60,304 nt of DNA, from assembly GCA_015066345.1 (NCBI GenBank), contig SVOQ01000015.1, forward strand, positions 1 through 60,304, given 5' to 3'. This DNA is from Oscillospiraceae bacterium. GTDB lineage: Bacteria > Bacillota > Clostridia > Oscillospirales > Acutalibacteraceae. Under the pieces are notes generated by a model. It was not told where the DNA came from. It did not search any database and saw only the letters and a program-made list of their open reading frames with translations. The translations under genes and the position numbers were made by a program. Position 1 is the first letter of the stretch. Every line of letters begins with the position of its first letter. Below are positions 4,984 through 19,808 of the stretch, piece after piece.

Positions 4984-5003
4984 CTGCATCACTCCTTAAA
5001 AAA

Positions 5004-5324: not shown

Positions 5325-5559
5325 CGACCTTTTGAGGAATCCGACTTTTAATTTTCTCAACAAAATTAAAATACTCCTCAAACTCACGGGGTTTTGTGTC
5401 CCGCTGACGCAAAATGGCGATTTCGTCATCAACGGAGTATTTCTCCCTGATAGCCGAAACTATGATTTCTTTACGGGTTGGTGTTTCTATGTTAAGTTCA
5501 ATATCCGCAATTTCTTCCCAGGTCATTTCCCTGTAAACACCATTTTCTAAAACCTTCAT
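5308..5559 (-). CDS. Small phage protein downstream of the tail/baseplate gene
   Basis: An 83-residue soluble acidic/basic helical protein (MTWEEIADIE at the start, AILRQRDTKPREFEEYF in the middle). Short proteins of this pattern commonly follow tail-fibre genes in Firmicutes phages and may help fibre assembly; that is inferred. Its ATG overlaps the stop of the 493-residue tail gene as ATGA (5556-5559). Confidence 0.65.
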   Translation of the reverse strand: MKVLENGVYREMTWEEIADIELNIETPTRKEIIVSAIREKYSVDDEIAILRQRDTKPREFEEYFNFVEKIKSRIPQKVGDLSG

Positions 5560-7037
5560 TTTCTAACCCCCCACAAAGTAATAGTTGTACCTTCCATAAA
5601 TGTTTTAGGTTCACCTACTTGCCCGATAAACTCTACCTTATTTATATTTATTTCTTTTCCGGGTGGAACAGGTTGACCGTATAAATCAGAGTTATTGGCA
5701 CTGGGAAACTGTGCAGTAGTAGCTATTGCTGCAGCGGGTGCGGTACATATCCCACCATTCCCCACACCAAAGCTATCATATCTGAAACACCATCTTCTTA
5801 ATGTTTCATTACGTAAATCCAGGTAAGCGTTACCTATTAAAGCTAATCCGCCCGCTAAAACATAAAATCGACCTTTAGAATAATCGGTCATACCTATAAG
5901 TGTTTCACAATACAAATCAGAAAGATTAAAGGAATTCCCGTCTTTATCCTTAGTAATTGAAATTTTAGTAGGCAAATCACCGTTTTCATCGGGAGCTACT
6001 GTTACAGTGACTATTTCCTCAAACACTTTACCGTTCTGTTTTTTCTCAAGTTCTTCACCAAAAACATTAAATGCCTCGTCCATTGCCAACGCACCGTACA
6101 CCTGTTCGTTGGTGTGTTCTTCATCCACATCAACTTGTGTCAAAATGTCAATATCACTGTTTTTCAGTTTTTCTATCTCGCTTTCGGCATTTTTCAGACG
6201 GGAAGAACTGATTATTATCGAACCGTCAAAATCCTCGGGGATAATATTCGTGGAGTCGGTTTTTGCGGCTTGAATATTGAGATATCCGTCATACTCGGAT
6301 ACGTATTCAACAATGCCGGTACTGATACCGCCATTTTTCAGGTTACGTGCGATATTCAAATCATCACTGTCAAAAATACGCCACCATACCTTTAACCCCT
6401 CAGGAAGTTCAATTTTAATTATGTCACCAACTCTGACCTTCACGCAGTAAGGTGTTATAATCCAGAACTTAGAATCAACAATACCGTTATTTGCCTCAAA
6501 AGTACCGTTAACAAAATCACTTTTCTCTAAACGGGTAATTATATTAAACTTCTGGAACTCATCATAAACCGCTTTTGCCGTAGGATATTGCTCGTTTGTG
6601 GATTTTTCCGTTAAACTCTCGGTTTTATTTGCGATCTTTTCCCTGTCGCTTACCTTTTCCAAAAGTTTTTCCGCAAACAACTGACAGTATTTCTCATACT
6701 CAGTTATGGAGGGAATTTCTTCAATTGCTACTTCTTCCGTATACGAACCCTCGTTGACATAAAAAGCGGTGGGCTTTGGGGAGTACATTAACTCAACCCC
6801 GTCGGAACTTTCTTTATAGGCGTAAACACCAAGAATTGCCGTACCTTTTTTCAAAGTGGGGATAAGGCATTCACCATCACACACAGGAACGGGAATATTA
6901 TTAAAAGCCGCCGTTACAGTAAGGGAAGAAAACTCCTCGGGTAACTGAAACTCGCATATATTCAATCCCCTTTCCCCTGCGTTAACAGGGCTGTACTCGG
7001 TGATAATTACTGTATCTTTAGTTACGTTTACTTTCAT
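5556..7037 (-). CDS. Phage baseplate/receptor-binding protein (BppU-like N-terminus)
   Basis: A 493-residue structural protein. Residues 1-95 resemble the N-terminal beta domain of upper-baseplate proteins. A helical linker follows with the common fibre phrase NEQYPTAKAVYDEF (near 150). The middle (about 165-285) looks like a beta-sandwich carbohydrate-binding module, followed by a short coiled coil and a C-terminal beta-rich region. It probably forms part of the host-attachment apparatus. The start ATG directly abuts the stop of the preceding gene (TAA then ATG). Host receptor unknown. Confidence 0.7.
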   Translation of the reverse strand: MKVNVTKDTVIITEYSPVNAGERGLNICEFQLPEEFSSLTVTAAFNNIPVPVCDGECLIPTLKKGTAILGVYAYKESSDGVELMYSPKPTAFYVNEGSYTEEVAIEEIPSITEYEKYCQLFAEKLLEKVSDREKIANKTESLTEKSTNEQYPTAKAVYDEFQKFNIITRLEKSDFVNGTFEANNGIVDSKFWIITPYCVKVRVGDIIKIELPEGLKVWWRIFDSDDLNIARNLKNGGISTGIVEYVSEYDGYLNIQAAKTDSTNIIPEDFDGSIIISSSRLKNAESEIEKLKNSDIDILTQVDVDEEHTNEQVYGALAMDEAFNVFGEELEKKQNGKVFEEIVTVTVAPDENGDLPTKISITKDKDGNSFNLSDLYCETLIGMTDYSKGRFYVLAGGLALIGNAYLDLRNETLRRWCFRYDSFGVGNGGICTAPAAAIATTAQFPSANNSDLYGQPVPPGKEININKVEFIGQVGEPKTFMEGTTITLWGVRK

Positions 7038-8243
7038 TTAACCACCCTTTTTATACTTCTTATACATTGCCGCAAGGTAGTCCTGATAGGTTGCGTATGT
7101 GTCAGTAAGTTTAGAACTACCGAATTCTTTGGCGGTCATTATAGTGTGAACGCCCGTTCTTATACAGAATTCATTGTAGGATATGGGCGGTGTTGTAAGG
7201 CTACTGTCACTACCACTGTCTTTTTCTGAAGATTTTTTTGAAGACGAGGAAGATGATGCACGACTTGCACTAAGTGCATACTGCCTGTCCTTATTAGCCT
7301 GGTCCCGTTTTGCCTCAGCCTCTTTAAACGCCATTTCCTTTTCAAATTCCTGTCTGTCAAGGGCGTCCTGATATTTTTCAAATTCGTATTCACGGTCGTT
7401 TTCCCACGCATCAACCTCTGCAAGAAATTCATCAAATTCCGCGTCGGACATTGAGGTAAGTTTATTTAGCAGATACTCGCCGTCCTCGTAGTATTTCTCT
7501 AATTCAGAAAGGTACTTGTCGTAGTCATCACCATCGAGTGAACGAAGAAGTGTAACATCCTCGAGCATTTTGTCACCCTCGTCGGTGTACTGAATATACG
7601 CCCTGTCACGTAAATCAAGGGCAATATCATTAAGTCCGTTAAGGTACTCGTCGTAAGCCTGATTACCCGCATTGACGGCGTAAGAGTTAGCGTAACCGCC
7701 CGTAAGAGCCGTTGCCTGACCCACCGTATCCATCATGGCTTTTTTGCCGTTTTCAATGTACTGTTCCCGATACTGTTGATACAACGGGTCCGCGTTAAGG
7801 TTGTAATTAAAATCCTCTCTGTTGAGAATATCGTTTAAAATAGTTTCAATTTGCTCCGAATACTTGCTCTCGTACTCCGAGGGCTTATTTTTCTCCCATT
7901 GACTGAGGGCATTTTCAGCGGACTTAACTTCATCGCTTTTCTTGTACTCGGGTCTTGGGAGATTTTTCAAACTTGGTACGGCGGCGGACTGAGTTTTATT
8001 ACCCGTTGATGAAGTCTTTGAAGAACTTTTTGAATTAAGGCTACCCCAGGTTTTAACACCTACAATACCGTCAACCTGAAGTCCGTGTTTCTTCTGATAA
8101 TCCCTTACGGCGGCTTGGGTTTTACTACCGAATTGTCCGTCAACCGCAAGGGAATAACCGTGATTATTTAATGTTTCCTGTAATTTTTTAACATCACTAC
8201 CTGATGAACCGTAGGAAATAGTTGAATAAGCTATATTTATCAC
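7038..8243 (-). CDS. Virion-associated peptidoglycan-binding protein with long coiled-coil (candidate ejection protein)
   Basis: 401 residues. Residues of about 10-72 are a PG_binding_1 domain (GSSGSDVKKLQETL ... VDGQFGSKTQAAV ... VDGIVGVKTWGSL). A Ser/Lys linker, then a long acidic helical region (about 100-330) with TALTGGYANSYAV, then a Ser-rich stretch and a compact C-terminus. It sits among tail genes, not beside the holin, and has no hydrolase domain. I infer a structural or internal virion protein that grips the cell wall during DNA entry. A tail-fibre linker role is an alternative. Confidence 0.6.
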   Translation of the reverse strand: MINIAYSTISYGSSGSDVKKLQETLNNHGYSLAVDGQFGSKTQAAVRDYQKKHGLQVDGIVGVKTWGSLNSKSSSKTSSTGNKTQSAAVPSLKNLPRPEYKKSDEVKSAENALSQWEKNKPSEYESKYSEQIETILNDILNREDFNYNLNADPLYQQYREQYIENGKKAMMDTVGQATALTGGYANSYAVNAGNQAYDEYLNGLNDIALDLRDRAYIQYTDEGDKMLEDVTLLRSLDGDDYDKYLSELEKYYEDGEYLLNKLTSMSDAEFDEFLAEVDAWENDREYEFEKYQDALDRQEFEKEMAFKEAEAKRDQANKDRQYALSASRASSSSSSKKSSEKDSGSDSSLTTPPISYNEFCIRTGVHTIMTAKEFGSSKLTDTYATYQDYLAAMYKKYKKGG

Positions 8244-8245
8244 CT

Positions 8246-10012
8246 CTATATTATGTAATTTCCGCTTATAAAAATCTGTGTTCCTTTACTTATTGCTCCA
8301 CCGGGGCGAATGACAATTTCACCCGTACCCTGTATTCCCCCAAGGCTTTCTACACCCGATGAGAAATGAACAACACATCCCAAAGGAGCGAAAAACAAGG
8401 GCTTTCGGGTAGAAATTGTTGCGAGAGTATGAGTGGTATTTGCCCCAAGGTCTTTTGAAACTTCAGTACGAATGGCAACACAAACCATTCTCAAAGCGGG
8501 ATAATGCCTGATATTACAGGTAAGATTCTGTGCGTTTTCGTGGGATTCGTAAGATATATTTTCGTAGTTGAGTTCACCCGAAACGCTGAGATTTCCGTCA
8601 ACGCTTAAATCCCACGCAACCTCCAACTCGTTTTCCTTTTCGGAAAATTTACCGAAGGCGGCACCTTTACCGCCCCGACGTATATTAAAGGGAATAGCCG
8701 CCACGGACACGGAGCGTAAAAACTCAATATAATTCCGGCAAACACGGTCTTTTACTCCCACCGAAACCATATAGGACGAGCCTTCCTCAATATTACCGTC
8801 GCCGAAAATGAACGGGGAATTTGTAAGACTCAGTGCATCACCATATGAAGAAGCCTTAGAATTTTTAAATTTCAATACGGTTTCGCAATTGTTTTTATTA
8901 TTCACCTGACTGTAACCCACGGCGTAATCAATAATCAGGTATTTACCCTGAGAATTCAGAGTGCCGTCCTCGTCACATCTTTCAATGCTTTTAATAGTCA
9001 CATACGGACTTTTGTAATCGCATACGGTTATATTCTGAGTTTTCTGAGTAATAAAACCTCGGCTGTCCCTTAGGGAAACGGTTATTGTTACAGTACCGCT
9101 TTTGGTTAAATCAAACACCGCGGGAGCATTCCTCTTAGAAACATCCCCCACCGTAATAGTAAGGCTCTGTAAAGTTGCCCCGTATTTATACGTAATGTCC
9201 GTCAAATCCACCTTCAACTGACTTATACCCTTAACGTATTCATCAAAATCTTCGGGTACCGAGTTTTCTATTTTCTGTAATGAGATATTAAACTCGGGCT
9301 TATACGCGGATGTTGAGGGTATAACAAAGGGAATATTTTTATTAACCGAGCCAATAAGTACGCCCTTACTGTACGTTTTCAGAGTGATTTTCAAAGTACC
9401 TTTTGAAGCCTTTGGAACCTGACTTGCCCAATTAAGGGGTATGCTCATTGTATATTCCTTTACTCCTGCACCAATATCCGCACTTGCACTTTCGTTTCCC
9501 ACACTCCATATTAACCTATGGGTAAAACTACCCGATGCGTAGGTTATGGTGGCTTTGAGAGTACTGTCGGGGTTGACACTTACCGCAGAAAGTGAAAAAG
9601 ACGATGCTCTCGGTATGGTGGTGCATTTAAAACTGCAAGTAACCTCACCACCCGTAAGGTTGGTGCTACTCATAGTAAATTCGCCACCTATATTCAAAGC
9701 AAGGCTACCGTCGGCGGTATGACTAACATTCCCCGTCCATTGGGCAAGGGTTACCGTAAGGTTATTTCTCGTATCAATAGCGATATTTTTACTCACCTTT
9801 ACCGACCCGCCCACAGTGAGTTTTACACTGTTTGCACTTTCCGTAAGGTTGTAAGCGGAGGCGGAGTAGCCGTCATTTCTTTTAAGCAGAAGTTTTACCG
9901 TAACGTTACTTGTGTTTGAAGAAATGTTCTGAGAATTTTGGGATACATTCAGCCACAAATCATATTTACCGCCTGAAACACCCGTACATTTACCGTAATA
10001 ATTAATCCCCAT
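8246..10012 (-). CDS. Phage minor structural/tail protein, DUF859-like
   Basis: A 588-residue beta-rich protein. The N-terminus (YGKCTGVSGGKYDLWLNVSQ) and repeated Ig-like beta segments up to about residue 430 match the DUF859 family of phage structural proteins. The last 130 or so residues contain GAAFGKFSEKENELEVAWDL, a segment typical of fibre proteins, and a distal beta domain. It overlaps the preceding coiled-coil gene by 11 nt. Likely a fibre or tail-tip component; the exact role is unknown. Confidence 0.7.
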   Translation of the reverse strand: MGINYYGKCTGVSGGKYDLWLNVSQNSQNISSNTSNVTVKLLLKRNDGYSASAYNLTESANSVKLTVGGSVKVSKNIAIDTRNNLTVTLAQWTGNVSHTADGSLALNIGGEFTMSSTNLTGGEVTCSFKCTTIPRASSFSLSAVSVNPDSTLKATITYASGSFTHRLIWSVGNESASADIGAGVKEYTMSIPLNWASQVPKASKGTLKITLKTYSKGVLIGSVNKNIPFVIPSTSAYKPEFNISLQKIENSVPEDFDEYVKGISQLKVDLTDITYKYGATLQSLTITVGDVSKRNAPAVFDLTKSGTVTITVSLRDSRGFITQKTQNITVCDYKSPYVTIKSIERCDEDGTLNSQGKYLIIDYAVGYSQVNNKNNCETVLKFKNSKASSYGDALSLTNSPFIFGDGNIEEGSSYMVSVGVKDRVCRNYIEFLRSVSVAAIPFNIRRGGKGAAFGKFSEKENELEVAWDLSVDGNLSVSGELNYENISYESHENAQNLTCNIRHYPALRMVCVAIRTEVSKDLGANTTHTLATISTRKPLFFAPLGCVVHFSSGVESLGGIQGTGEIVIRPGGAISKGTQIFISGNYII

Positions 10013-10964
10013 CTATCCACCTCACTTCAAGTCCGTTTCGGGTAGTATCAAATAAAAAATACCCGTCGTTGGAATTACCAATTTTTAAATAATCTATAAT
10101 TTCCGCGTTGGTTATGTACAACGCACTGCCCGAAATATACGCTACTTCCGCAACGCCCTGATAAAAGGAAAGTTTATCATTTGTAAATCGGGCTTTTACG
10201 TTACTGTCACTTCTGCCGATTTCAATACCGTATACGCCCTCCTCCAACTCGCCTCGTCTTATGTACACATCCAGAGATGAAACGAGTTCACTTACCTCTC
10301 CGCCAAGGGTGGATAAATCATCCGAAACCTTAGTAACACTTTCGGAAAACTGCTCCGTAATATTATCCGCGGATGCTGTTATCTGGGCATTAACCCGATT
10401 TTCAAGGCTTTGGGAATCCTCTTTTGTAACGTACAGGTTTTCTATCTGTGTGCTTATTGCCTCCGCCTGAAGCGTCAGTTCCGCTTTAGCACTTTTCTTA
10501 TAACCCTCTAAATCCTGTGAAACCGTCTCGGTATTTTCTGAAACCAGTTTTATATCCGAGAAATTCTGTTGTATTTTTGTTTCGGTCTGTGCTGAGTATT
10601 CACCGAATTCGCTTTTTCCTACAAAATCCCCCGTAACACTCTGTAAAATCTCTGTTTTACTCTGCTCAATTCTGGAGTTGTAGTCCTTCTCAATATCCTC
10701 GGCGGTACTGAGAATTTTTTCTTTTAGTTGGTTGAATCTCTCGCGACTCGCACCGTTAAGAATGGTCACGTTTTCCTGTTGGCTTTTTCTTGTAGTTTCA
10801 ATTTTTTCTTCAAGTGCCGACAGTTCATTCTGACTTTTAACATCAAGGGCATGGGACAAAGCCTCGTTAAGTTCATAGAGATAATTTTTCAGAAGTAAAA
10901 ATCTGTTATCGGTGGAATACTTTACTGAAGTGATATTCGGAACACTTAAATTAAGGTCATACAT
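10002..10964 (-). CDS. Phage coiled-coil tail/connector-associated protein
   Basis: 320 residues. Residues of about 20-235 are nearly continuous amphipathic helix and coiled coil (many Glu, Gln, Lys, Ser; SQNELSALEEKIETT and following). The C-terminal 85 or so residues are a beta-rich module (EEGVYGIEIGRSD onward) that resembles the shared C-terminal region of phage minor tail proteins. It overlaps genes on both sides (8 and 11 nt). Probably a trimeric tail spike or fibre shaft. It is too short for a tape measure, consistent with a short tail. Confidence 0.62.
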   Translation of the reverse strand: MYDLNLSVPNITSVKYSTDNRFLLLKNYLYELNEALSHALDVKSQNELSALEEKIETTRKSQQENVTILNGASRERFNQLKEKILSTAEDIEKDYNSRIEQSKTEILQSVTGDFVGKSEFGEYSAQTETKIQQNFSDIKLVSENTETVSQDLEGYKKSAKAELTLQAEAISTQIENLYVTKEDSQSLENRVNAQITASADNITEQFSESVTKVSDDLSTLGGEVSELVSSLDVYIRRGELEEGVYGIEIGRSDSNVKARFTNDKLSFYQGVAEVAYISGSALYITNAEIIDYLKIGNSNDGYFLFDTTRNGLEVRWIDGD

Positions 10965-12714
10965 TCAGCTCACTCCCCGATTCAATTTTTCTTGAAATAC
11001 TGTAAATTTTAACGTCACCCCTGCCCTGAATTTTAATACGAAGGTGGTCGCATCTCGGTGTAATAAACGGAAGATGCAGTGAGCCGGTTTTATCAAAAAC
11101 AGTATCAATTTGTTTGACCCATTTACCGTTACTGTCAAACTCAAAGAACACCGAAAGCCTTGCTCCCTTAGTACCCGTTGCCCTTAGAGATACATTGGAA
11201 TAATACTTATTTTCGGGAAGTCCCAGACCCCATAAACCGCTTTCAAAGGTCCAGTTAAAGTCATCCTCCTCATAAAAACCCTTTAACTCACCCGTAAAAG
11301 AACCGTAGCGGTTTTCACCGTCCATAAGCCCCATACGACGGGAGCCGTCCTGATTCATAATGAAGTAAAGGTTGCAGTTGTTATTGGAAAATTCCCTTAT
11401 ATCAATATTATCCTCCCTGTGCCAGAGAGCCTTGTCCTCGTCGTAAACAAACAGATGTCTCTGCTCGTTTTTGTCGGACATACAGATGTAATATTTACTG
11501 AAGCACCCCCCTGCCACGGCTTTTGAGTAGTAGGTATCTCCAAGAGCCGATGAAACCGAGACAGGTACACCACCCTCGTAGGCACATACACCGCCCACGG
11601 ATTTATAGTAAAGTGTTTCATTAAGGCACACCACGGAACGGTGTGAGCCTTTCTGCACTCCGCGTATATAGGACGTAACCACCGTATAGGGCGGATTCTG
11701 ACCGTATATTTTATGAACACAGTTTTCTTTGAAGAAAAGGATATATCCTCTGTAACCCACCGCCGCGGTAAAGGGTCCGTCACTACCTACGCTTACGGCA
11801 TAACTGTCCATAGAAATACCCATAAAGGAATTAAAATTCTTAGGGTCACCGAGTTTTGATGCGTAAATCTCGTTGGTTTTTGAGGAGCAACCCCATATTC
11901 GGTTACCGTACTCACAAACAAAATCCATATCGGGGACTTTTCGTTGCACCCTGACTACGGTATCAATGGTAAGAGCATTGTCGATAATCCCCGTTATAAC
12001 AATAAAGTCATCACCCTTGTGACGGATAACGTGAGCCCCGTCAAGGTCGGTATTTTCAAAACCCGAAAGCAGAACACCGTCATACTGATTAAAATTCTCA
12101 CCGATATTCGCACAGTTAATACGCACGTATGTAGTGGCAATTTCCTGCCAGAAATTAACCGTTTCGTAAAACTGTTTGAGTGTATGGGGTGTACTCGAGG
12201 TATCAAGCCACAAATCACCGTTAGCGGGATTTTCGGGAGGTACTGAGGAAATTGCGTAATCCCCGTACAACTCACCGTCCGCCCTGCACATTCCCAAAGT
12301 TACCTGAGCGTTACTTTCAAACTCCGCCTCCAGATAACCGTAGTCGCTTAAATCCTCGGTGTTTACGTAAACCTTATCGGGAAAGATAATGAGATACGCA
12401 CCCATGGAAACGAATTTTCTTTCTTCGTTTATGTTGGGGAAGAATAAATCAGTAACCTTTTCACCGCCGTAATACAAGGAGCCGTTATTTATGTACGCGA
12501 TGCACTCCTTAGAAAAAAGCCCCTGAAGATTATCACCCGTCACGTTAAAGAACACTCTTTTATTTCTTGGTGAAAGGGCGGGGAAAGAAACAACACCCGT
12601 ATTCTCGGTAAACGAAAAGGCATTTTCGCCAATGACCTTATTATTTTCGTAGCCTTTGAAACGACTTATAATTTCACGGTCCTTATAAAGCTCATTTAAT
12701 CTGGGGTTATACAT
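10957..12714 (-). CDS. Beta-propeller-like tail (nozzle/stabilisation) protein of a short-tailed phage
   Basis: 585 residues, almost all beta. Repeating blade-like segments (for example RIWGCSSKTNEIYASKLGDPK, YRGYILFFKENCVHKIYG, KSVGGVCAYEGG) are characteristic of propeller-type nozzle or tail-needle-stabilisation proteins in podovirus-like phages. The C-terminus is a separate beta domain. It follows the small adapter-like gene and overlaps it by 8 nt, the order expected for adapter then nozzle. The assignment rests on fold pattern and position. Confidence 0.6.
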   Translation of the reverse strand: MYNPRLNELYKDREIISRFKGYENNKVIGENAFSFTENTGVVSFPALSPRNKRVFFNVTGDNLQGLFSKECIAYINNGSLYYGGEKVTDLFFPNINEERKFVSMGAYLIIFPDKVYVNTEDLSDYGYLEAEFESNAQVTLGMCRADGELYGDYAISSVPPENPANGDLWLDTSSTPHTLKQFYETVNFWQEIATTYVRINCANIGENFNQYDGVLLSGFENTDLDGAHVIRHKGDDFIVITGIIDNALTIDTVVRVQRKVPDMDFVCEYGNRIWGCSSKTNEIYASKLGDPKNFNSFMGISMDSYAVSVGSDGPFTAAVGYRGYILFFKENCVHKIYGQNPPYTVVTSYIRGVQKGSHRSVVCLNETLYYKSVGGVCAYEGGVPVSVSSALGDTYYSKAVAGGCFSKYYICMSDKNEQRHLFVYDEDKALWHREDNIDIREFSNNNCNLYFIMNQDGSRRMGLMDGENRYGSFTGELKGFYEEDDFNWTFESGLWGLGLPENKYYSNVSLRATGTKGARLSVFFEFDSNGKWVKQIDTVFDKTGSLHLPFITPRCDHLRIKIQGRGDVKIYSISRKIESGSELNV

Positions 12715-13084
12715 ACAAATCCCCTGCCTTTATTTCACTCTGTTTTAAAACTGCCTTTTTTCGGTTTATACTGTTACTCAAATCCCTGTACATATTGTTA
12801 AAAAGCAGGGCGGAGTTATTGAATCGGGCAATTTCACCGTTCATATAGTCGAGCTTCATATTAAGGTACAAGCCGTAAATTTCACCGAATTCCTCGGGTG
12901 CTTTAAGTGTGGTTTCCAATGGAGTGGAAATATCGTAGCCCTTAAAAGGCTCGTCCCCTCTCGGCTCGGTAATTTCCGAACTGATTTTATAATCCAACTG
13001 AGAAACCCAACGTATTTTTTTACCTATGTCAACTGAGTTACTGCGTTCAGAGTCAAATATCTCAATTGCTTTTCTTAAAGTCAT
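12707..13084 (-). CDS. Head-to-tail adapter-like protein
   Basis: 125 residues, mainly helical, with the pattern IRWVSQLDYKISSEI near the N-terminus and LYLNMKLDYMNGEIARFNNSALLFNN in the C-terminal half. This pattern is seen in small connector proteins between capsid and tail genes of Firmicutes short-tailed phages, analogous in role to the T7 gp11 adapter. No enzymatic motif. It overlaps the nozzle gene by 8 nt. Confidence 0.6.
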   Translation of the reverse strand: MTLRKAIEIFDSERSNSVDIGKKIRWVSQLDYKISSEITEPRGDEPFKGYDISTPLETTLKAPEEFGEIYGLYLNMKLDYMNGEIARFNNSALLFNNMYRDLSNSINRKKAVLKQSEIKAGDLYV

Positions 13085-13095
13085 AAAACCCCTCC

Positions 13096-13308
13096 TTAAA
13101 GAGAGATATTAGCGTCAATATATGCCGCGGAAACCGCCGCCATATTCTCACTGTTTTTAATTACCTCTGCGAAGCGTTCGGGAATTTCAACGGTTTTGCC
13201 CGTCTGCACAAGGATACGTTCACCGTTAACCGCAACGAAACGTTCCGTATCATTTCTTGAGGTTTTAGGAATAAAAACACTCACGAGTTTTTCTTTTGTA
13301 TTTGCCAT
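13096..13308 (-). CDS. Small phage protein after the major capsid gene
   Basis: 70 residues, basic N-terminus then a compact beta/alpha domain (ERFVAVNGERILVQTGKTVEIP). Genes of this size and pattern often follow the capsid gene and may be head-decoration or neck proteins; I cannot assign one. It has its own ribosome site (AAAGGAG region, 13319-13325). Confidence 0.6.
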   Translation of the reverse strand: MANTKEKLVSVFIPKTSRNDTERFVAVNGERILVQTGKTVEIPERFAEVIKNSENMAAVSAAYIDANISL

Positions 13309-13366
13309 TTATATACACTCCTTTAATGTGTGGGGTGTCATAAAGACACCCCCGTTAATATTTAAT

Positions 13367-14380
13367 TCAGTTAGCCTTAGCAGTTGCACTGAAAGCAGAA
13401 CCGCTTTCAATTCTGATAAGGTATTCTTCAACAAGTCTTTTTGCAGTCTTAAGACCCTTCCAACCCACTGAAGAACGCTGATTAAGGGGGTCGTTACCGT
13501 AGCCCTTCTGTTTTACGATATGCTCAACGCCACCGCCGTTAACGCTTGTAACACCGTAGGCATCCGCACCGATAATAAGTGTTGCGAATACGGCACAACC
13601 ACTTGCACCCTCGTTCCAGATTTTAGCCTCTGTGCTTTCAACGAAACGTACACCGCCGAGACAACCGATTTCGCCCTTAAGCATATTTTCGGGGGTTGCG
13701 TATTTCTGAACTTCCATCCACTGATTACCCGCCTCCTGCATAAGATCGTAGGCAACATAGGGGTGAATAATACCAACATAGTAGCCGTCAATTTTGGGGG
13801 CGTTCATTGCCTTAAGTTCTGCCGCCGCCTTGAAAACATCCTTAACACGAAGGAGTGCGGTTTTGTCAATTGCACTTCTTGAGGTAACCGCAGTTTCAGT
13901 ACCGTCCGCAGAAACCTTGGGGCAATAAAGCACGTTTGTACCGCCGACAATTTCGTTTCTTACAATTGTATCCATAGTAAGACCCGCCTGTGACGCAAGT
14001 TGCTTAGTAGCCTCAACGATAGTATTATCAACCGCAGTAAGCTCAAGAAGGTCGGTCTGCTCAATATAGTCACCGTACTGTTCAACAGTAGCACTGACGC
14101 TTGAAACATTAAGTTTATTACCCGTGGGTGTTACACCCTCAGTAAGGGGTGTAAGAGCCTTGGGGAGGGATGAAAACTTACGGAACTCAATAATCTTACC
14201 GCCGTTTTTGGGGATATCGCGTTTCTGACCGAACTGGTCGTGAACAAGGTAGGGTGAAGCAAGAGTAATAAGAGTTTTATCGTAAAATGTTTTCATTTCC
14301 GCAGAAAGTGATTCGGAAGTAGTTTTGTTCACTTCGTCACCTGCGGCAAAAAGCTGAATATTAAAAATATAATCTGTCAT
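13367..14380 (-). CDS. Major capsid protein, N4-gp56 family
   Basis: 337 residues, the main shell subunit. The N-terminus is MTDYIFNIQLFAAGD; after it comes the family core (FYDKTLITLASPYLVHDQFGQ ..., GGKIIEFRKFSSLP, ALTEGVTP-like segment and LLELTAVDNTIVEATKQL). The IQLFA motif at residues 8-12 matches the L27-type Prp cleavage motif, so cleavage after Phe11 is predicted. It follows the scaffold gene by 20 nt. The capsid identification is firm from sequence pattern and gene order; the cleavage is inference. Confidence 0.88.
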   Translation of the reverse strand: MTDYIFNIQLFAAGDEVNKTTSESLSAEMKTFYDKTLITLASPYLVHDQFGQKRDIPKNGGKIIEFRKFSSLPKALTPLTEGVTPTGNKLNVSSVSATVEQYGDYIEQTDLLELTAVDNTIVEATKQLASQAGLTMDTIVRNEIVGGTNVLYCPKVSADGTETAVTSRSAIDKTALLRVKDVFKAAAELKAMNAPKIDGYYVGIIHPYVAYDLMQEAGNQWMEVQKYATPENMLKGEIGCLGGVRFVESTEAKIWNEGASGCAVFATLIIGADAYGVTSVNGGGVEHIVKQKGYGNDPLNQRSSVGWKGLKTAKRLVEEYLIRIESGSAFSATAKAN

Positions 14381-14400
14381 AAAATTTCCTTTCCATGGTG

Positions 14401-15165
14401 CTAAAAAGATATATTCGCACCATTCTCAACCTGTTTAAGTATTTTTAAAATATCTTGTGAGGTCAGGGAATTAACGTCAACAGATGTAACAACCGCACTC
14501 TCCGAGGAAACACCGTTTTCAATGGGGCGTCTGCCTTTAGCCTCTATGCCCTTTACAACCTGTTCGCGGACTTTATCCGCGGTGTAAGCCATAGCTCCGG
14601 ACAGTATTTCGTCCTTATGTACTGTTTCATAAGCCGCTTTAAGGGGTACTCCGCCTAAAAGGAGCTGTGAAAACAATTTGTTTTCCCGTAGTTCTTTTCT
14701 TAAATCAAAGTCGGGATATGTATTTTTAACATCCTCACTCTGTTTAACCCAACTGCTTATTTTACCGCGGAGGTTTTTTCCTCGTTCAGAAACAACCTCA
14801 TTTTCAGGCGGTGTATTTACGGGAGTTTTTTCTTTTTCTTTAATAAAATCAAGTAAATTATCCTCGTTACCGTCCTCAACGCCGTATTTCTCCATAAGGG
14901 ACTCAACCACGGGGGAAACCCGTTCCTTGTACTCCTCGAGTTCTTTGGTCTGCTTAAATCTTTTGTCGATAATTGCCTGAGTTTTTCTTGTAAACTGTTC
15001 TTTGAATCTGCCGTTAATTAAATTGGCAAATTCCTCGTCATCGTTTACAATTTCGGCACTTGTCTGCTCGGCGACAGCATCTTCGACGCCCGTTTTCCCG
15101 TTTGAATTTTCCGCACCCTCACTTGCGAAAAGTTGCAAATCGGGAGTGTACCATAATTTTTTCAT
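14401..15165 (-). CDS. Capsid scaffolding protein with LQLFA N-terminal motif
   Basis: 254 residues, highly charged and helical, typical of scaffolds (Glu/Lys-rich coil of about 50-150). The N-terminus MKKLWYTPDLQLFASEG carries LQLFA at residues 10-14, the same processing motif as in the capsid protein; predicted cleavage is after Phe13. The C-terminal region is basic/polar and may bind the capsid subunit. Its position directly before the capsid gene and directly after the Prp-like protease gene supports the call. Confidence 0.82.
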   Translation of the reverse strand: MKKLWYTPDLQLFASEGAENSNGKTGVEDAVAEQTSAEIVNDDEEFANLINGRFKEQFTRKTQAIIDKRFKQTKELEEYKERVSPVVESLMEKYGVEDGNEDNLLDFIKEKEKTPVNTPPENEVVSERGKNLRGKISSWVKQSEDVKNTYPDFDLRKELRENKLFSQLLLGGVPLKAAYETVHKDEILSGAMAYTADKVREQVVKGIEAKGRRPIENGVSSESAVVTSVDVNSLTSQDILKILKQVENGANISF

Positions 15166-15252
15166 TTGTTTTTCCTTTCATTTCAGAAATAAATTTTTAA
15201 TCCATCGTCTTTCCGAAGTGTCATTTATATATAAAAACCCAAGGGTTATTAA

Positions 15253-15573
15253 CTATTCCATTGTGATGTAATCGGGGTAACTTTCCGCCAACATCATAAA
15301 TCCCGTAACAAAAGCATCTATAATGCCCTCAATACGTTCTTTTGAAAAACTGAATTTTTCAATTTCAAAGCAGATATAACCGTCGCGGATAATATTACGG
15401 TGAAGTTTTAATCTACCGTTGCTTTCCTCGTCTAAAATACAGTTGATGAAAGACCCCGCGAGGGTGGATATACCCGCGCAAACTACGTCCTCACCCCGTG
15501 TGCCGTAGCCACTGTGACCCTCAACACTAAAAAGGGTTTTATCGTAGTATTCCCTGTAACATACTTTCGTCAA
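15253..15573 (-). CDS. prp: Prp-family cysteine protease (DUF464), predicted prohead protease
   Basis: A 106-residue protein with the full Prp signature: His20 in VEGHSGYG and Cys32 in EDVVCAGIS, 12 residues apart as in cellular Prp (the His22/Cys34 pair). Cellular Prp removes the N-terminal extension of ribosomal protein L27 at an LQ-x-F/A site. Here the gene lies between portal and scaffold, overlapping the portal stop as ATGA (15570-15573). Scaffold and capsid both carry that motif, so the likely role is capsid maturation. It could also process host L27; a cellular prp would normally sit between rplU and rpmA, which are absent. Confidence 0.85.
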   Translation of the reverse strand: MTKVCYREYYDKTLFSVEGHSGYGTRGEDVVCAGISTLAGSFINCILDEESNGRLKLHRNIIRDGYICFEIEKFSFSKERIEGIIDAFVTGFMMLAESYPDYITME

Positions 15574-17222
15574 ATCATACTCACTCCGCTACTAAGTTTT
15601 GCCGCAAGGGCACTTTTACCCTCAAAGTCCATCATACTTATGGCAAGAAGTGCCTGTTGACGAAACTCGGGATTAAACATTCCCGCGTTATATAACTGCA
15701 AAGCAAGTTCATTCTGACTTATTTTTGTAAAAGGACTTGCCTTCTGAGCACTGACTTTAATATCAAAAACGGGCTTTCTTGAACCCATTTCAATACCGAA
15801 TGTGCTACCCTGATTTTTAAGCCTTATCTGTGAATTGTCGTAGGATATAAACTCCTGCTGACCGTTATCGCCTAAAATACGGAAAAATCGTGGTTCATCG
15901 TAAAACTGACGTATAAGTTCAACTGCAAGGGAATTAAGCTCCGAAAAGGCTCTGTAACCGCCCTTTACCATATCGCGGGTAAGTTTACTACCTGCCTCCT
16001 GTAAAGCCGCAATGGCGGATGCGGCAGTAACACCGCTCGAAACACCGCCCTGTGAAAAATCACGGTTACCGCTTGTTTCCTTAAGCTCGTCGATTTTACT
16101 GTTGAGAATACCGAGGTAAATCTCAGGAATACCCGACATACGAATTTCCCGGATACTGTCCTCACCAAGGTTGCTACCCGAAACGTGAACGAAATTATTG
16201 CTCCAGTCGGCAAATTCTTCTTCGTTTACCGCACCCGAGGAATTAATGAAGTATCTGGGATTCGTAGCCATAGTTGCGTTTTTAACAAGGGCGTTACCCA
16301 ATAAATCTATCTGCTTCTGAGCATCCTTCATAATGTCAATGTAACCGAAACCGCAGGGTGTACCCTCCTCCACAAAAAGGGAATCGAAAACAAAGGGATA
16401 CTGACCGTGGTCGTAAAAGCCCCTCTCGGAATATTCGGGGTCATTTTCCGATGCGTAAAGAAGTTCATTGTTGCAGATTTTACAGTAATGCACCGTTTCA
16501 ACACCGTTTCTTATGACCTTATAGTATCTGTCGATTACGGCACTCTTCTCGGATGTGTCAACGGAATCGTCAAATACATAATGGGCAATTTCTACCGTTG
16601 ACGAGCCTAATTTACCCGACAATTGCGGATAAAGTGACACAAGGGCATCGTTATCCATAAGTTCAACGTGGAAGATGTTTTTGCTTTTCTGTATATCCTT
16701 TACTCCCGGCTCCCAGAAAAGGTTAAGCACGTCCACCTGCTTGATTTCGATATCCCCCAGACCGTTATTTTTCAAGGGATTCCAGAATATACCGTAAACG
16801 GCAGTACCCGCCTTAAGTTTGTACCACCAGGCATCACTGTAAATTTTTTCAAAGCCGTTACGCTCAAAAATAACAGGTAAAATCTGCGAAAGCACCGTTG
16901 CGGCTTTTTCGTCACTTACCTCACGGGGTAAGCAGGTTACTTCGGGATAATTATCCATAGCATCCGCGTGTTTGTTGGCAATGGAGTTAAAAAGCCACGC
17001 GGAGGCATTTTTATCGCCCTTATCCCCCCTTAACTGCTCCCAATGACGCAGTTTAAACCACTGCTCATTGTCAACAATTCGGTTTTCGAGGGCGGTTTTG
17101 CCCTCTTTATATTTTTTGAGAATACTGATTGCTTTCTCGGTTTCCTCCTGACCGATAACCCCTTTTGTACCAATGGTTTCGGCAGGTTTCACTTTCTCAT
17201 AAGTCTTTTTATTTTCTTTCAT
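15570..17222 (-). CDS. Phage portal protein
   Basis: A 550-residue portal subunit forming the DNA channel at the head vertex. Recognisable features are the N-terminal helical part with WFKLRHWEQLRGDKG, the wing region (DIEIKQVDVLNLFWEPGVKDIQKS), the conserved KDAQKQIDLLGNALVKNATMATNPRYF segment near 320, and QGGVSSGVTAASAIAALQEAGSK near 410, all typical of P22/Gram-positive short-tail-type portals. It starts 1 nt after the TerL stop and ends overlapping the Prp gene. Length is in the normal range and the frame is intact. Confidence 0.88.
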   Translation of the reverse strand: MKENKKTYEKVKPAETIGTKGVIGQEETEKAISILKKYKEGKTALENRIVDNEQWFKLRHWEQLRGDKGDKNASAWLFNSIANKHADAMDNYPEVTCLPREVSDEKAATVLSQILPVIFERNGFEKIYSDAWWYKLKAGTAVYGIFWNPLKNNGLGDIEIKQVDVLNLFWEPGVKDIQKSKNIFHVELMDNDALVSLYPQLSGKLGSSTVEIAHYVFDDSVDTSEKSAVIDRYYKVIRNGVETVHYCKICNNELLYASENDPEYSERGFYDHGQYPFVFDSLFVEEGTPCGFGYIDIMKDAQKQIDLLGNALVKNATMATNPRYFINSSGAVNEEEFADWSNNFVHVSGSNLGEDSIREIRMSGIPEIYLGILNSKIDELKETSGNRDFSQGGVSSGVTAASAIAALQEAGSKLTRDMVKGGYRAFSELNSLAVELIRQFYDEPRFFRILGDNGQQEFISYDNSQIRLKNQGSTFGIEMGSRKPVFDIKVSAQKASPFTKISQNELALQLYNAGMFNPEFRQQALLAISMMDFEGKSALAAKLSSGVSMI

Positions 17223-17223
17223 A

Positions 17224-18597
17224 TTAAATACTCCTGTAATATCCTTTGTTTAAATCCAAGGGGTCGTCGCCCAAGAGGGCATTTTTCTTTTTATATGTGG
17301 GTGCAATGGGTCTTGCCATGCACATATACCTGACCTCGTCGGCAATATGGTCCTCACCCGTTGTATCAAGGTCCTCGGGGTTGGTGACACTGAATTTAAG
17401 TTCGGGCACCGTCCTTATAAACCCCTTGCAGGTGTTAAAGACGTACATCATTGGTATGCCGTTGTCGTCAAAGGAAAGTCGGTAATGTACCTGCATCCAC
17501 CCGGGAAGTCGTTTGTTATCGCCCTTTGTAAAATAAATACCGTTTCTTACTGCGGCTTCAATAATTGCCTCGCCCCTTGATGCATCCCATATTGAGGGGT
17601 CTGCTACACCTGAAATATGCTTATTTTTAAGCCAACGGTGAGTTCTTTCTATTTCCGCAATTTCCGAAAATATTTTTTCGGGTGGCCATTTAACACCCTC
17701 GTTGGGAGATTTGGTGCAACCGTAAAGTTCAAGTATCCTGTAAAGTCTGCCGTCATAATCCACCGCCCACCATGCACAGGAAAAAGGCTTTGCGTACCCG
17801 AAGTCAAAGGAGCGGTAAATAACCCAGTCATTGGGAATTTCAAAAGGCTCTATAACGTGGGTGAATGTACCGTCCTTGTAATTTTTTGGTACATCGCGGA
17901 ATTCTTCAAAAAACTGACCGTCAAAAATATCCCAGTTACCGAAACGGTGAGCCTGTCGCAGTTTTTCAGGAAGTGAGTCAAGAACCTTTACGTACTCGGG
18001 GTTGGTTTTCATAAGCACCGTATTATCGTCAATGGTTGCGGGTATGAATATGTAATCCGCAGGGTCCTCACCGCTTTCGTAACGCCCCTTTACAAAAAGC
18101 CGTTTAAACCAGTTGTGACCCACCCCACCGGGGTTTCCCGTAAAATACATACGGGGTTTAAAATCCACTCGGGTTGTTCGGTTACAGGTCATAAGAAACT
18201 GAATTTGCGTGAATGTGAAATGTGTGCATTCCTCAACACCTATAACGTCGTATTCCTGACCCTGATACTGATAAATGTCGTTTTCCGTGTCGCAATAGCC
18301 TAAGCGGATACGTGAGCCGTTGGGAAAAATAAAGGCTCTTTCATCCCGTTTGTAACGGGCTATACCGTTTAGTAGCGAAAGTAAGGGTAAAAGGTGATTT
18401 TCACGAAGTTCGGGTAAGGTTTTACGCAGCAGCAAAAGTTTAAGCCCACTGTATTGAAAAGCAAGTAAAACGAACTTAGTTCTTAACGCCCAGGATTTTC
18501 CGCCCCCACGAGCACCGCCGTAACCTATAAATCGGTTTGTGGATTCAAAAAATTCTTTTTGCTTTTCGTTGGGTGGCGGTATGATAAGCTCTTTCAT
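17224..18597 (-). CDS. Terminase large subunit (TerL)
   Basis: A 457-residue packaging motor: N-terminal ATPase and C-terminal RNase-H-fold nuclease. Walker A GGARGGGKS is at residues 27-35, Walker B with the catalytic acid pair (VIGVEE) near 125, and motif III (YFTGNPGG) near 165. Nuclease acidic residues appear in RSFDFGYAKPF and GVADPSIWD. I use the ATG at 18597, which forms ATGA with the stop of the preceding gene; the GTG 9 nt upstream lies too close to the AGGAG. It is intact, which argues against advanced decay of the element. Confidence 0.92.
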   Translation of the reverse strand: MKELIIPPPNEKQKEFFESTNRFIGYGGARGGGKSWALRTKFVLLAFQYSGLKLLLLRKTLPELRENHLLPLLSLLNGIARYKRDERAFIFPNGSRIRLGYCDTENDIYQYQGQEYDVIGVEECTHFTFTQIQFLMTCNRTTRVDFKPRMYFTGNPGGVGHNWFKRLFVKGRYESGEDPADYIFIPATIDDNTVLMKTNPEYVKVLDSLPEKLRQAHRFGNWDIFDGQFFEEFRDVPKNYKDGTFTHVIEPFEIPNDWVIYRSFDFGYAKPFSCAWWAVDYDGRLYRILELYGCTKSPNEGVKWPPEKIFSEIAEIERTHRWLKNKHISGVADPSIWDASRGEAIIEAAVRNGIYFTKGDNKRLPGWMQVHYRLSFDDNGIPMMYVFNTCKGFIRTVPELKFSVTNPEDLDTTGEDHIADEVRYMCMARPIAPTYKKKNALLGDDPLDLNKGYYRSI

Positions 18598-18860
18598 TTG
18601 CTCCACTCCTGTATTTGTTTTTCAAGCCTTATAATCACACCGTCCGAAACCTGAGCAGAGCCGTCGCAACATTCAAGTAAATCGTAAAGTTCCCTTAAAG
18701 CCCCTACGCTTTCTTTTAAAAACTTAGCGTCAATTTCGGGGTTTCCCGTAGCTTTAAAACTCTTTCGTGCCTTTTTTATAATATCGTCAATCAAAGCACT
18801 CATATTGTCCGCTGCCGATGAAACCCTTTTGTATTTATCTACGTTTCTTTTCTCGCTCAA
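18594..18860 (-). CDS. Small helical phage protein in terminase-small-subunit position
   Basis: 88 residues, charged and helical (NVDKYKRVSSAADNMSALIDD; LKESVGALRELYDLLEC). No helix-turn-helix is obvious. It overlaps TerL and the upstream gene by ATGA junctions at both ends, so all three are translationally coupled. Position suggests the DNA-recognition partner of TerL, but the sequence is not diagnostic. Confidence 0.55.
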   Translation of the reverse strand: MSEKRNVDKYKRVSSAADNMSALIDDIIKKARKSFKATGNPEIDAKFLKESVGALRELYDLLECCDGSAQVSDGVIIRLEKQIQEWSK

Positions 18861-19084
18861 ATTCTCAAACCTCTTTCGTAAAGGGATGAAACGCTCTTAA
18901 AATGATTACATCTGCTACCACCCGCAGAACAACACACGCTATTCTCATAGGTATCTTTAATATCTTTACTCGGGAATCTGTGAATACATTTAGTGCCTTT
19001 AAGAATTCCTTCGCAAATAACAGAACGATTACCTTCCCCGAGATAAAAGGGACATTCAATTCTATCTTCTATGGCTTTTGACAT
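18857..19084 (-). CDS. Cys-rich small phage protein, first gene of the late operon
   Basis: 75 residues with a zinc-binding pattern of Cys and His (CPFYLGEG, CEGILKGTKCIHRF, CCSAGGSRCNHF). Such proteins often precede terminase genes in Clostridia prophages and may be late regulators or nuclease accessory factors; function not established here. AGGAGG precedes the ATG at 19084. A longer frame to 19120 would run through that ribosome site, so it is rejected. The divergent control region lies just upstream. Confidence 0.7.
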   Translation of the reverse strand: MSKAIEDRIECPFYLGEGNRSVICEGILKGTKCIHRFPSKDIKDTYENSVCCSAGGSRCNHFKSVSSLYERGLRI

Positions 19085-19113
19085 TTTACGTACCTCCTGT
19101 ACTATTATTGGTA

Positions 19114-19142
19114 TTGACATCGGAATAAAATTGAGTTATATT
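19114..19142 (+). promoter_or_regulatory. Promoter of the repressor/ImmA pair
   Basis: TTGACA (19114-19119) and TATATT (19137-19142) separated by 17 nt on plus. Transcription would begin near 19150, at the first operator repeat, giving a leader of about 120 nt that passes through both operators and the LexA box. Confidence 0.7.
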
Positions 19143-19150
19143 ATTTTCGT

Positions 19151-19199
19151 AAACTGTACAGATTTCCGAACCACAACTGCATTATAGTACAGTTTTCCG
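19151..19199. promoter_or_regulatory. Paired operators between late operon and repressor
   Basis: AAACTGTAC (19151-19159) and GTACAGTTT (19187-19195) form a perfect inverted repeat. In the same orientation, GTACAGATTTCCG (19156-19168) and GTACAGTTTTCCG (19187-19199) are a 13-bp direct repeat with one mismatch, 31 bp apart (three helical turns). A minus-strand TATAAT (complement of 19181-19186) touches the second site. These are the likely binding sites of the XRE repressor controlling both directions. Confidence 0.6.
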
Positions 19200-19217
19200 T
19201 ACTTTTTTACCCAAAAC

Positions 19218-19231
19218 CGAACGAATGTTCG
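19218..19231. promoter_or_regulatory. LexA (SOS) box upstream of the repressor
   Basis: CGAACGAATGTTCG fits the Gram-positive LexA consensus (CGAAC, four bases, GTTYG) exactly in both arms. It lies between the operators and the ribosome site of the repressor gene. This suggests that DNA damage changes expression of the repressor/peptidase pair. Confidence 0.65.
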
Positions 19232-19269
19232 ATTTTTGTAGCATTGCACAAAAACAGGAGGTCATTATT

Positions 19270-19605
19270 GTGAATATGTATGAAAAAATAGCACAACTCT
19301 GTGACGAAAAGGGCATAAAACCTGCGGGTTTGTGTAAAGCAACGGGTATACCCAAAAGTACACTATCCGAATTAAAGCAGGGCAGAACCAAAACCTTATC
19401 CACTCAGACATTAAGTAAAATAGCCCAGTATTTTAACGTGTCATTGGGGTATTTCGATGATACTTTTGACCCTGTTGAAGATACGAGGGATGAACTGTTT
19501 CAAAAACGAAAACTGCTTTTCGATATGTCGAAACGTGCAACGGAGGACCAACTTGACACATTCCTTGTGATGTTTCAGGCTTTAATTGATAAGGAGGACA
19601 AATGA
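19270..19605 (+). CDS. XRE-family repressor of the phage element
   Basis: About 111 residues. The helix-turn-helix covers residues of about 10-60 (KPAGLCKATGIPKSTLSELKQGR), followed by a helical C-terminal half without a peptidase or LexA-type cleavage site. The start is GTG at 19270 (AGGAGG at 19256-19261, 8-nt spacer) or ATG at 19276. It is transcribed away from the late operon and overlaps the ImmA-like gene as ATGA. It is probably the CI-type repressor removed by that peptidase, as in ICEBs1 ImmR/ImmA; that relation is inferred. Confidence 0.85.
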   Translation: MNMYEKIAQLCDEKGIKPAGLCKATGIPKSTLSELKQGRTKTLSTQTLSKIAQYFNVSLGYFDDTFDPVEDTRDELFQKRKLLFDMSKRATEDQLDTFLVMFQALIDKEDK

Positions 19606-19808
19606 GCCAGATTATAAGACAAATAAAAATGCCGCTGACTATCAGGGCTTTTACAATACCCGATGCCAACGGCGACTTTAACATTTATATTAACGAGAAT
19701 TTATCCGACGAAGCCAAACGCAAATCCTTAGCTCACGAAAGATACCATATTGAAAACAACGACTTCCAAAAAACCGAATTTGCAAGACTCATAGAAGAAA
19801 AGAGTTGA
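19602..19808 (+). CDS. Miniature ImmA/IrrE-type metallopeptidase
   Basis: A 68-residue protein with an HExxH zinc-metallopeptidase motif in LAHERYHIENN (near residues 44-54), as in ImmA/IrrE anti-repressor peptidases. The family is usually 120-250 residues; here only the core around the active site is left, with no obvious third zinc-ligand helix. It is coupled to the repressor by ATGA and followed at once by a terminator. It may be a minimal active peptidase or a decayed remnant. Supported by motif and gene pairing. Confidence 0.7.
   Translation: MSQIIRQIKMPLTIRAFTIPDANGDFNIYINENLSDEAKRKSLAHERYHIENNDFQKTEFARLIEEKS

Follow-up and report, generated by a model that had tools for sequence, protein, structure and literature searches.

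In Staphylococcus aureus, the host protease Prp, which acts on ribosomal protein L27, is reported to cut the capsid and scaffold proteins of phage 80-alpha as well (PMC5744158), and in the pneumococcal phage Cp-1, a protease that MEROPS files in family C108 (clan CR) is reported to cut the major head protein (PMC12445089). Here we describe a Prp-family protease encoded in the head operon of a 15.8-kb cluster of phage-derived genes, which lies in a 60,304-nucleotide stretch of an Oscillospiraceae genome (contig SVOQ01000015.1; the whole stretch is called the window below). This locus resembles the S. aureus/80-alpha system in the family and fold of the protease, in its essential residues, and in the LQxF/A sites (the slash marks the cut) near the N termini of both capsid and scaffold. 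It differs in that 80-alpha has no protease of its own and uses that of its host, whereas here one prp gene lies in the head operon and another beside rpmA. From the comparisons that follow, we infer that the phage-type Prp very probably cuts the scaffold and capsid encoded next to it, as the head protease of a vertically inherited cluster. The observations behind this reading are the gene order, the sites and catalytic residues, the co-variation of protease and site, the presence of phage Prps in hosts where no other prp was found, a conserved chromosomal locus, and purifying selection.

The head operon, its Prp and the predicted sites

On the minus strand, the head genes are ordered terminase large subunit (TerL), portal, Prp, scaffold-like protein, and capsid (Table 1). 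The portal-Prp-scaffold/capsid order is common to many relatives, and the position and motif of the scaffold gene recur in many of them. A sequence-only reading of the window had placed a 106-residue Prp-like protein with His20 and Cys32 between portal and scaffold, and had pointed to the starts DLQLFASEG in the scaffold and NIQLFAAGD in the capsid; coordinates, residues, and both sites proved correct. The Prp matches PF04327 at 2e-15 (57.2 bits against a curated cut-off of 27), which places it in Peptidase_Prp (MEROPS C108), and it scores under every NCBIfam Prp equivalog cut-off. Its AlphaFold2 model has a predicted local distance difference test score (pLDDT) of 93 and the element order bbabbab, and the top structures found by Foldseek were 7jvs/7kld, S. 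aureus Prp, with a template modeling (TM) score of 0.78. The residues reported to be essential in S. aureus Prp, G21, H22, D31, C34, and S38 (PMC9405229), map at equal spacing to G19, H20, D29, C32, and S36 of the window Prp, and the spacing of 12 between H20 and C32 is that of H22 and C34. The gene is not located between rplU and rpmA, the position of a ribosomal-processing (cellular) Prp; its place is that of a prohead protease, in the head operon with the portal on one side and scaffold/capsid on the other. The capsid match to TIGR04387 (274 bits against a cut-off of 60) assigns that protein to the N4-gp56 family.

The scaffold starts with MKKLWYTPDLQLF/ASEG and the capsid with MTDYIFNIQLF/AAGD. 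In the mechanism that we propose, where the cut as well as its timing and purpose are deduced from these features, Prp would cut the scaffold after Phe13 and the capsid after Phe11, so that both proteins lose a short N-terminal tag at about the time of procapsid assembly, and would occupy the slot of other phages' prohead protease. Its long His-Cys loop would suit Gln-containing LQxF/A sites like that of host ribosomal protein L27, with the other loops of relatives serving other sites. The host Prp here could probably make the same cut.

Table 1. Features of the head operon, the remainder of the cluster, and the adjoining gene (window coordinates)
Feature	Position	Strand	Basis or remark
Prp-family cysteine protease, 106 residues	15253..15573	-	PF04327; phrog_4478 peptidase; TTG start overlaps portal 3' end
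Catalytic His20 of Prp	15514-15516	-	His-Cys spacing 12, Gln-reading type
Catalytic Cys32 of Prp	15478-15480	-	
Scaffold-like protein, 254 residues, N-terminal DLQLF/ASEG	14401..15165	-	Between Prp and capsid; phrog_13908
Predicted Prp site in scaffold, D9-A14, cut F13/A14	15124..15141	-	Sequence; reported F/A cut of S. aureus Prp (PMC5744158)
N4-gp56 family major capsid protein, 337 residues, NIQLF/AAGD	13367..14380	-	TIGR04387 1.3e-81; phrog_1357 5.8e-85
Predicted Prp site in capsid, N7-A12, cut F11/A12	14345..14362	-	Same six residues as host L27 (MLKINIQLFAHKK)
P22-like portal protein	15570..17222	-	PF16510 6.2e-32; phrog_156
TerL	17224..18606	-	PF04466, PF03237
Whole 15.8-kb cluster	4026..19808		Conserved chromosomal locus, congruence with flank, purifying selection
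Lysis end: amidase (4026-4736) and holin (4702-4992)	4026..4992	-	Amidase PF01520 1e-16; holin PF04531 1e-19, phrog_297
Small open reading frames (ORFs) after capsid, internal-virion-like and tail genes, 493-residue ORF, peptidoglycan-binding protein	5004..13308	-	phrog_511, phrog_372, PF05895, PF01471
Two small ORFs, 88 and 87 residues, upstream of TerL	18594..19120	-	Orthologues in genus copies
Divergent Cro/C1-type regulator and short IrrE-like (M78) protein	19225..19808	+	PF13443 1.7e-13, PF06114 4.1e-05, phage regulator PHROGs
Leucine-rich-repeat (LRR) protein with dockerin-like end	2949-4034		Adjoins cluster, here and in several genus genomes

Co-variation of the His-Cys loop with the cleavage site

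Relatives were first drawn from an IMG/VR capsid search, and a Prp profile found Prp in 48 of its best 80 loci. We added three more capsid scans and one named-genome scan, each with its best 80 loci, and a Prp scan; as the best 80 per scan, these sets are not a random sample. With the window and six annotated phages, the total was 376 loci, of which 373 had a capsid call and 276 had a Prp as well. After removal of 16 of the 373 in which the capsid-core pattern was absent (8 of them with Prp, including L367) and of near-identical capsids (shared 5-mers >0.6), 146 loci remained, 112 with Prp. The catalytic His and Cys are kept in all 112 non-redundant Prps, and the ratio of nonsynonymous to synonymous substitution rates (dN/dS) of Prp among relatives has a median of 0.177, with none of 54 pairs at or above 1.

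The motif tested for chance occurrence was [LIVMF]Q.F[ASG]. In the window, it is found within the first 30 residues of 3 of 166 ORFs of at least 60 residues, namely, the capsid, the scaffold, and one unrelated ORF (58138-58494), whose motif was judged to be chance and rejected as a site. Across the 146 non-redundant loci, it occurs in the first 60 residues of 61 capsids (61/146), compared to 6 of 916 other plus-strand ORFs of at least 150 residues, and three of those six (L351, L155, and L371) resemble scaffolds missed by our scaffold picker. By these counts, a Prp-type motif at head-protein starts exceeds chance.

The sequence-only reading had called for a survey of N4-gp56-type phages for Prp and the motif together, and in these loci the loop spacing (the distance in residues between the catalytic His and Cys) goes with the residue at position P3 of the site, which the motif caller ignores. 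Among 111 loci, capsid sites with Gln at P3 accompanied a spacing of 12 in 48 cases and another spacing in 3, while non-Gln sites did so in 2 and 58, respectively (Fisher test, 3e-25). Three of these capsid calls were wrong by eye (L301, LQMF, and L060, TLQHF, are really Gln, and L220 is really non-Gln); with them corrected, the counts are 49, 3, 1, and 58 (1e-26). The corresponding scaffold counts (110 loci) are 36, 3, 13, and 58 (1e-14), where some of the 13 scaffolds called non-Gln at spacing 12 are mis-picked ORFs. Capsid and scaffold P3 are equal in 56 of 109 loci compared to 22.8 on shuffling, a value that 0 of 10,000 shuffles reached. The agreement extends to particular sequences: FHLF sites pair with the loop HADDHDAC, LNLFD sites with HATGS-C loops, NLRLFD sites with HAGYGMTNHLPEGHDIVC, and LQLFA sites with loops such as HAGYAPRGQDIVC.

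We also counted independent pairs differing at P3 on two trees. On a Prp tree built without the loop, the initial calls gave 15 such pairs, of which 13 agree with the rule, 2 show no loop difference, and 0 oppose it; on the capsid tree, 12 pairs gave 9, 3, and 0. One agreeing pair per tree in this initial run depended on L060. After correction of the three calls, the Prp tree has 12 agreeing pairs, 2 of the same class, and 0 opposing (n = 14), and the capsid tree has 9, 2, and 0 (n = 11). In S. aureus Prp, the P3 Gln is reported to be held by loop residues Gly29 and Asp31 (PMC9405229), so the part of Prp that varies is the part expected to vary. A short-loop phage Prp, that of L097, keeps the fold in its model (pLDDT 96; TM score 0.81 to 1s12 and 0.72 to 7kld). 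Taken together, the sites appear to drift from the L27 motif along with the Prp loop.

An apparent absence of Prp from some phages with LQ[RQ]F sites was rejected as a reading after a whole-record search of 18 such phages found Prp in 7, which are all 7 of the records longer than 30 kb. In L035, L048, and L307, Prp lies about 18 to 22 kb from scaffold and capsid, an ORF of about 1,600 residues precedes the scaffold, and the L307 Prp sits just after a portal-like gene. In the stretches that we examined, four phages with the same capsid family (Bacillus Page, Paenibacillus SV21, Streptomyces WRightOn, and Pseudoalteromonas Y3) have no Prp and no motif. To judge from Page and SV21, the motif is not forced by the presence of Prp in the host lineage; in control searches, the Bacillus subtilis Prp was detected, and an Escherichia coli laboratory strain showed a short L27 and no prp (see also PMC9405229).

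Host Prp, host L27 and the alternatives

A second prp near rpmA, which the sequence-only reading had proposed to look for, is present in the source genome on contig 10 (G000:C10), between the L21 and L27 genes. Host L27 starts with MLKINIQLFAHKK, and its site NIQLFA is identical to the capsid site. We surveyed L27 in 30 host genomes, out of the 80 named-genome loci, and found it in 27; since the genomes are mostly metagenome bins, they may contain gaps or binning errors. An N-terminal extension with Gln at P3 is present in 20 of the 27, while the other 7 have no extension and show an in-frame stop and a GGAGG-like stretch just upstream. Six of these seven hosts are labelled Bacillota, Clostridia-type, or Gallibacter, and have a gap of 22 to 58 nucleotides from rplU to rpmA. 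Pfam and two alignment searches found 1, 1, 1, 1, 2, and 2 Prps in the six genomes, only at phage positions and with none adjoining rpmA. In five of the six, the DNA at the spot found proved to be that of the phage's own Prp, and the second Prp in G045 is, by position, a second phage copy. The isolate Gallibacter intestinalis has two Prps, one inside an N4-gp56-type prophage with the site LHLHMFD and another that precedes proteins starting MKKLQLFAEP and MLKKKLQLFAAP, which look like the scaffold and capsid of an unrelated prophage. The seventh host, a Treponema genome, has a Prp beside L27 and another at a phage position. Ten phages with non-Gln sites live in hosts whose L27 has Gln (for L320, by the scaffold call only). 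In L328, L347, and L321, whose hosts have no L27 extension, Met is found at P2 or nearby (LHTHMFD, LHPYMFF, and LHLHMFD), and the scaffolds carry similar stretches.

Because phages with Prp and site occur where no chromosomal prp or L27 extension was found, these genomes support the view that, at the level of the family, head processing need not depend on host Prp. The earlier proposal that the element's own Prp makes head maturation independent of the host enzyme therefore stands for the family; it does not follow for the window copy, since a host Prp is present and the host L27 and capsid sites are the same.

That identity also bears on whether the host's chromosomal Prp, located beside rpmA, does the processing here and leaves the cluster copy redundant, as 80-alpha is reported to use host Prp (PMC5744158). 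A sister copy of the cluster in G052 (G081) and five Gln-site prophages have no Prp of their own, which speaks for redundancy. We nevertheless regard redundancy as unlikely, though a serious alternative. Prp is kept in 13 of 14 genus copies examined, window included, with intact catalytic residues and a median dN/dS of 0.185 (6 pairs), and 18 of 19 Prps that neighbor L27 form a separate clade (support 0.895), on which grounds we rejected a recent origin of the phage Prp from the host gene.

Several observations weigh against the cluster Prp as the head protease, or against its loop as the reader of the site. Gln sites are found with spacings of 9 in L029 and 10 in L060, and also with 9 in L367, which is outside the 111 loci, its capsid-core pattern being absent. 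L258 and L020 have one Gln and one non-Gln partner; L042, L332, L135, L304, and L078 have apparently real non-Gln scaffolds beside Gln capsids at spacing 12; and Prps beside L27 have spacing 11 in hosts with Gln L27 (L411 and L412). The scaffold is assigned its putative role by position and by its relatives, and PHROGs states no function for phrog_13908. In the sister copy (G081 = G052), the scaffold directly follows the portal with no prp between them, and NIQLFA is present in both head proteins. The five prophages with a Gln capsid site and no own Prp (L315, L316, L318, L341, and L374) live with a host Prp, and the scaffold starts of L316 and L318 carry no site. An own Prp is thus not always needed, since G052/G081 and these five keep Gln sites. 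In addition, 80-alpha with an uncleavable capsid or scaffold is reported to stay viable (PMC5744158).

The named-genome loci also bear on the strong rule that there is no phage without its own Prp unless it has a Gln site. Among these 80, an own Prp was found in 25 of 25 non-Gln, 42 of 47 Gln, and 0 of 2 motif-less loci, with 5 fragments left out, L320 set aside because its capsid call failed, and L372 re-classed by eye from non-Gln to Gln; status was assigned by hand for loci with no flank Prp, and the genome bins are possibly incomplete. These counts reduce the rule to a trend. In L312 and L346, we found neither the motif nor an own Prp, and the head region of L312 looks partial.

Another alternative is that phage Prp serves mainly as an assembly chaperone by binding the N-terminal tags, and that cleavage is of secondary importance. 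Such a role has been proposed for S. aureus Prp on L27 (PMC9405229), and the 80-alpha scaffold N terminus is reported to be needed while its cleavage is not (PMC5744158). The retention of both catalytic residues in every non-redundant Prp argues against this, and we consider it improbable.

The sequence-only reading had raised the further idea that the phage Prp acts on host L27 and so ties infection to ribosome biogenesis or lysis. What favors it is motif identity, NIQLFA in both host L27 and capsid. Against it, phage Prps persist in the six genomes where L27 has no extension, divergent Prps with non-Gln sites occur in hosts with a Gln L27, many motifs are unlike that of L27, and L27 of the window host already has its own Prp; we therefore set this idea aside as very unlikely. 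Linkage of the capsid, scaffold, and Prp genes and the relatedness of the phages favor the view that loop and site agree through shared descent with no functional contact. We consider this the least likely alternative of all, as no independent pair opposes the rule on either tree, the varying loop corresponds to the P3-contacting part of S. aureus Prp, and seven phages with a different capsid, described below, obey the same rule.

The cluster as a probable domesticated phage and its place among known systems

TerL was found in 17 of 22 genus genomes including G000, and in 10 of the 11 high-quality ones, usually once, with a best identity per other genome of 77 to 95%. Elsewhere in the family, 9 of 148 other genomes drawn have it (E value of 1e-100 or better), at 42 to 57% identity. 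At least one chromosomal flank is shared with the window by 12 of 13 other genus copies examined, and both flanks by 3; the conserved flanks are YdjC and ATP-binding cassette transporter genes on one side and the LRR-dockerin protein and solute-binding protein (SBP) genes on the other. The distances of both TerL and portal correlate with those of YdjC, w22158, and w23430 (r of 0.92 to 0.96, 0 of 500 permutations, 8 to 9 genomes); among the other flank genes, w156 shows a weak correlation, and w26343 and SBP show little or none. The median dN/dS values in the cluster range from 0.060 (TerL and capsid) through 0.082 (portal), 0.108 (amidase), 0.139 (regulator), 0.153 to 0.164 (three tail-side genes), and 0.184 to 0.185 (scaffold and Prp) to 0.327 (tail protein), next to 0.053 to 0.102 for flanking chromosomal genes. 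They come from non-independent pairs with dS up to 2 (mostly near 1.5), of which some genes have as few as 5.

No TerL was found in 5 of the 22 genus genomes (G084, G078, G071, and two with no YdjC match). In G084 (L526, 3945-7231), the amidase and its neighbors remain beside YdjC at the locus, which looks like a deletion remnant of the cluster; YdjC has other neighbors in G078 and lies in another context in G071. G068 (L471, L472/L473, and L474/L475) has, besides the cluster, two additional copies of the head genes in other gene surroundings, which are probably prophages. One of these additional copies is mosaic, with a capsid 92% identical, a scaffold 32% identical, and a Prp 23% identical.

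In Pfam and/or PHROGs scans of the cluster ORFs, we recognized no integrase or replication gene, and the 493-residue ORF and several small ORFs gave no clear match. The 88- and 87-residue ORFs, with no PHROGs or Pfam match, are possibly a candidate small terminase. A search for attachment-site-like direct repeats around the cluster gave nothing convincing, the best flanking pair being 18 nucleotides at 83%. The cluster has two features of gene transfer agents, being a single vertically inherited locus and consisting of structural and packaging genes with no recognized integrase or replication gene. It is probably a domesticated phage passed on vertically, and it resembles gene transfer agents or PBSX-like elements most. 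The sequence-only reading had overlooked this side of the element, which is unlikely to be a mobile phage given the conserved locus and flank congruence.

Tentatively, and as a picture that may well prove too broad, we suggest a genus-wide domesticated phage that makes host-DNA particles (a gene transfer agent with an N4-gp56 capsid and a P22-like portal, in Clostridia-like hosts) and processes its heads with its own Prp, together with a phage-wide code from loop to P3 that frees heads from the L27 motif. Such a code would turn the DUF464 annotation "peptidase," scattered over phage head operons, into a testable rule, in which the loop predicts the cut motif and the motif predicts the loop, and would supply about 100 natural enzyme-substrate pairs for an antibiotic-target protease family. 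To our knowledge, S. aureus Prp is the only member of this family with a structure that includes a substrate. As to gut Clostridia, in which we know of no gene transfer agent or particle weapon, the conserved cluster would be a candidate for either.

Phage-encoded Prps also occur outside this capsid family. Seven phages of lactic acid bacteria or Brochothrix (PLgT-1, TP712, phiFL3A, BL3, TMW 1.1365 P3, phiS13, and Krappator27) have a Prp after the portal (with a gap or small ORF between in PLgT-1 and TP712), LQxF[AS] at the starts of scaffold and major head protein, and a spacing of 12 in 7 of 7; unlike the window, they have a different capsid. Their DUF464 genes are annotated as peptidase, ribosomal protein, hypothetical, or unknown, with no substrate in the records examined. 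The label "ribosomal protein," given to phage Prp in L085 (4956-5243) and two other GenBank records, is misleading. The major tail proteins of phiFL3A (L437, 9917-10279) and BL3 (L438, 9160-9481) start in a Prp-like manner, with LDLQLLAG and MDLQKFAG. In Dorea phage DO134P1, Prp is followed by two proteins with NLQLFA and GLQVFT at their starts.

Short-loop Prps provide further comparisons. Thermotoga maritima TM1457 (1S12) shares a short His-Cys loop, GHAPDKTLC, with the L097 Prp, among whose matches it has the top TM score (0.81), but it is a cellular Prp described as not cutting L27 and with no known substrate; the phage data suggest that cellular Prps of this short-loop type, for which no substrate is known, may recognize defined motifs of another kind. 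The Cp-1 protease, which we take to be the orf13 product, is like the window Prp in being phage encoded and in processing a major head protein. It differs in being very divergent (PF04327 at 0.0024, under the cut-off), with the short loop GHGDDTDQSC, and in belonging to a phi29-like phage; it matches the Prp profile built here at 1e-9, and no LQxF is present in the first 75 residues of the Cp-1 head protein.

Gene transfer agents and PBSX-like defective phages resemble the cluster in size (about 15 kb), in gene content (head, tail, packaging, and lysis, with no integrase or replication gene recognized), and in occupying one vertically inherited locus under purifying selection. The cluster is unlike them in its N4-gp56 capsid and P22-like portal. 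We found no description of a Prp encoded by a phage with LQxF sites, nor of loop-site co-variation, in the titles, abstracts, and passages of the open literature that we searched, though older primary papers on Prp or Cp-1 may contain one. Phage-encoded C108 head proteases are thus already known from Cp-1, while the specificity code and the domesticated setting appear to be new.

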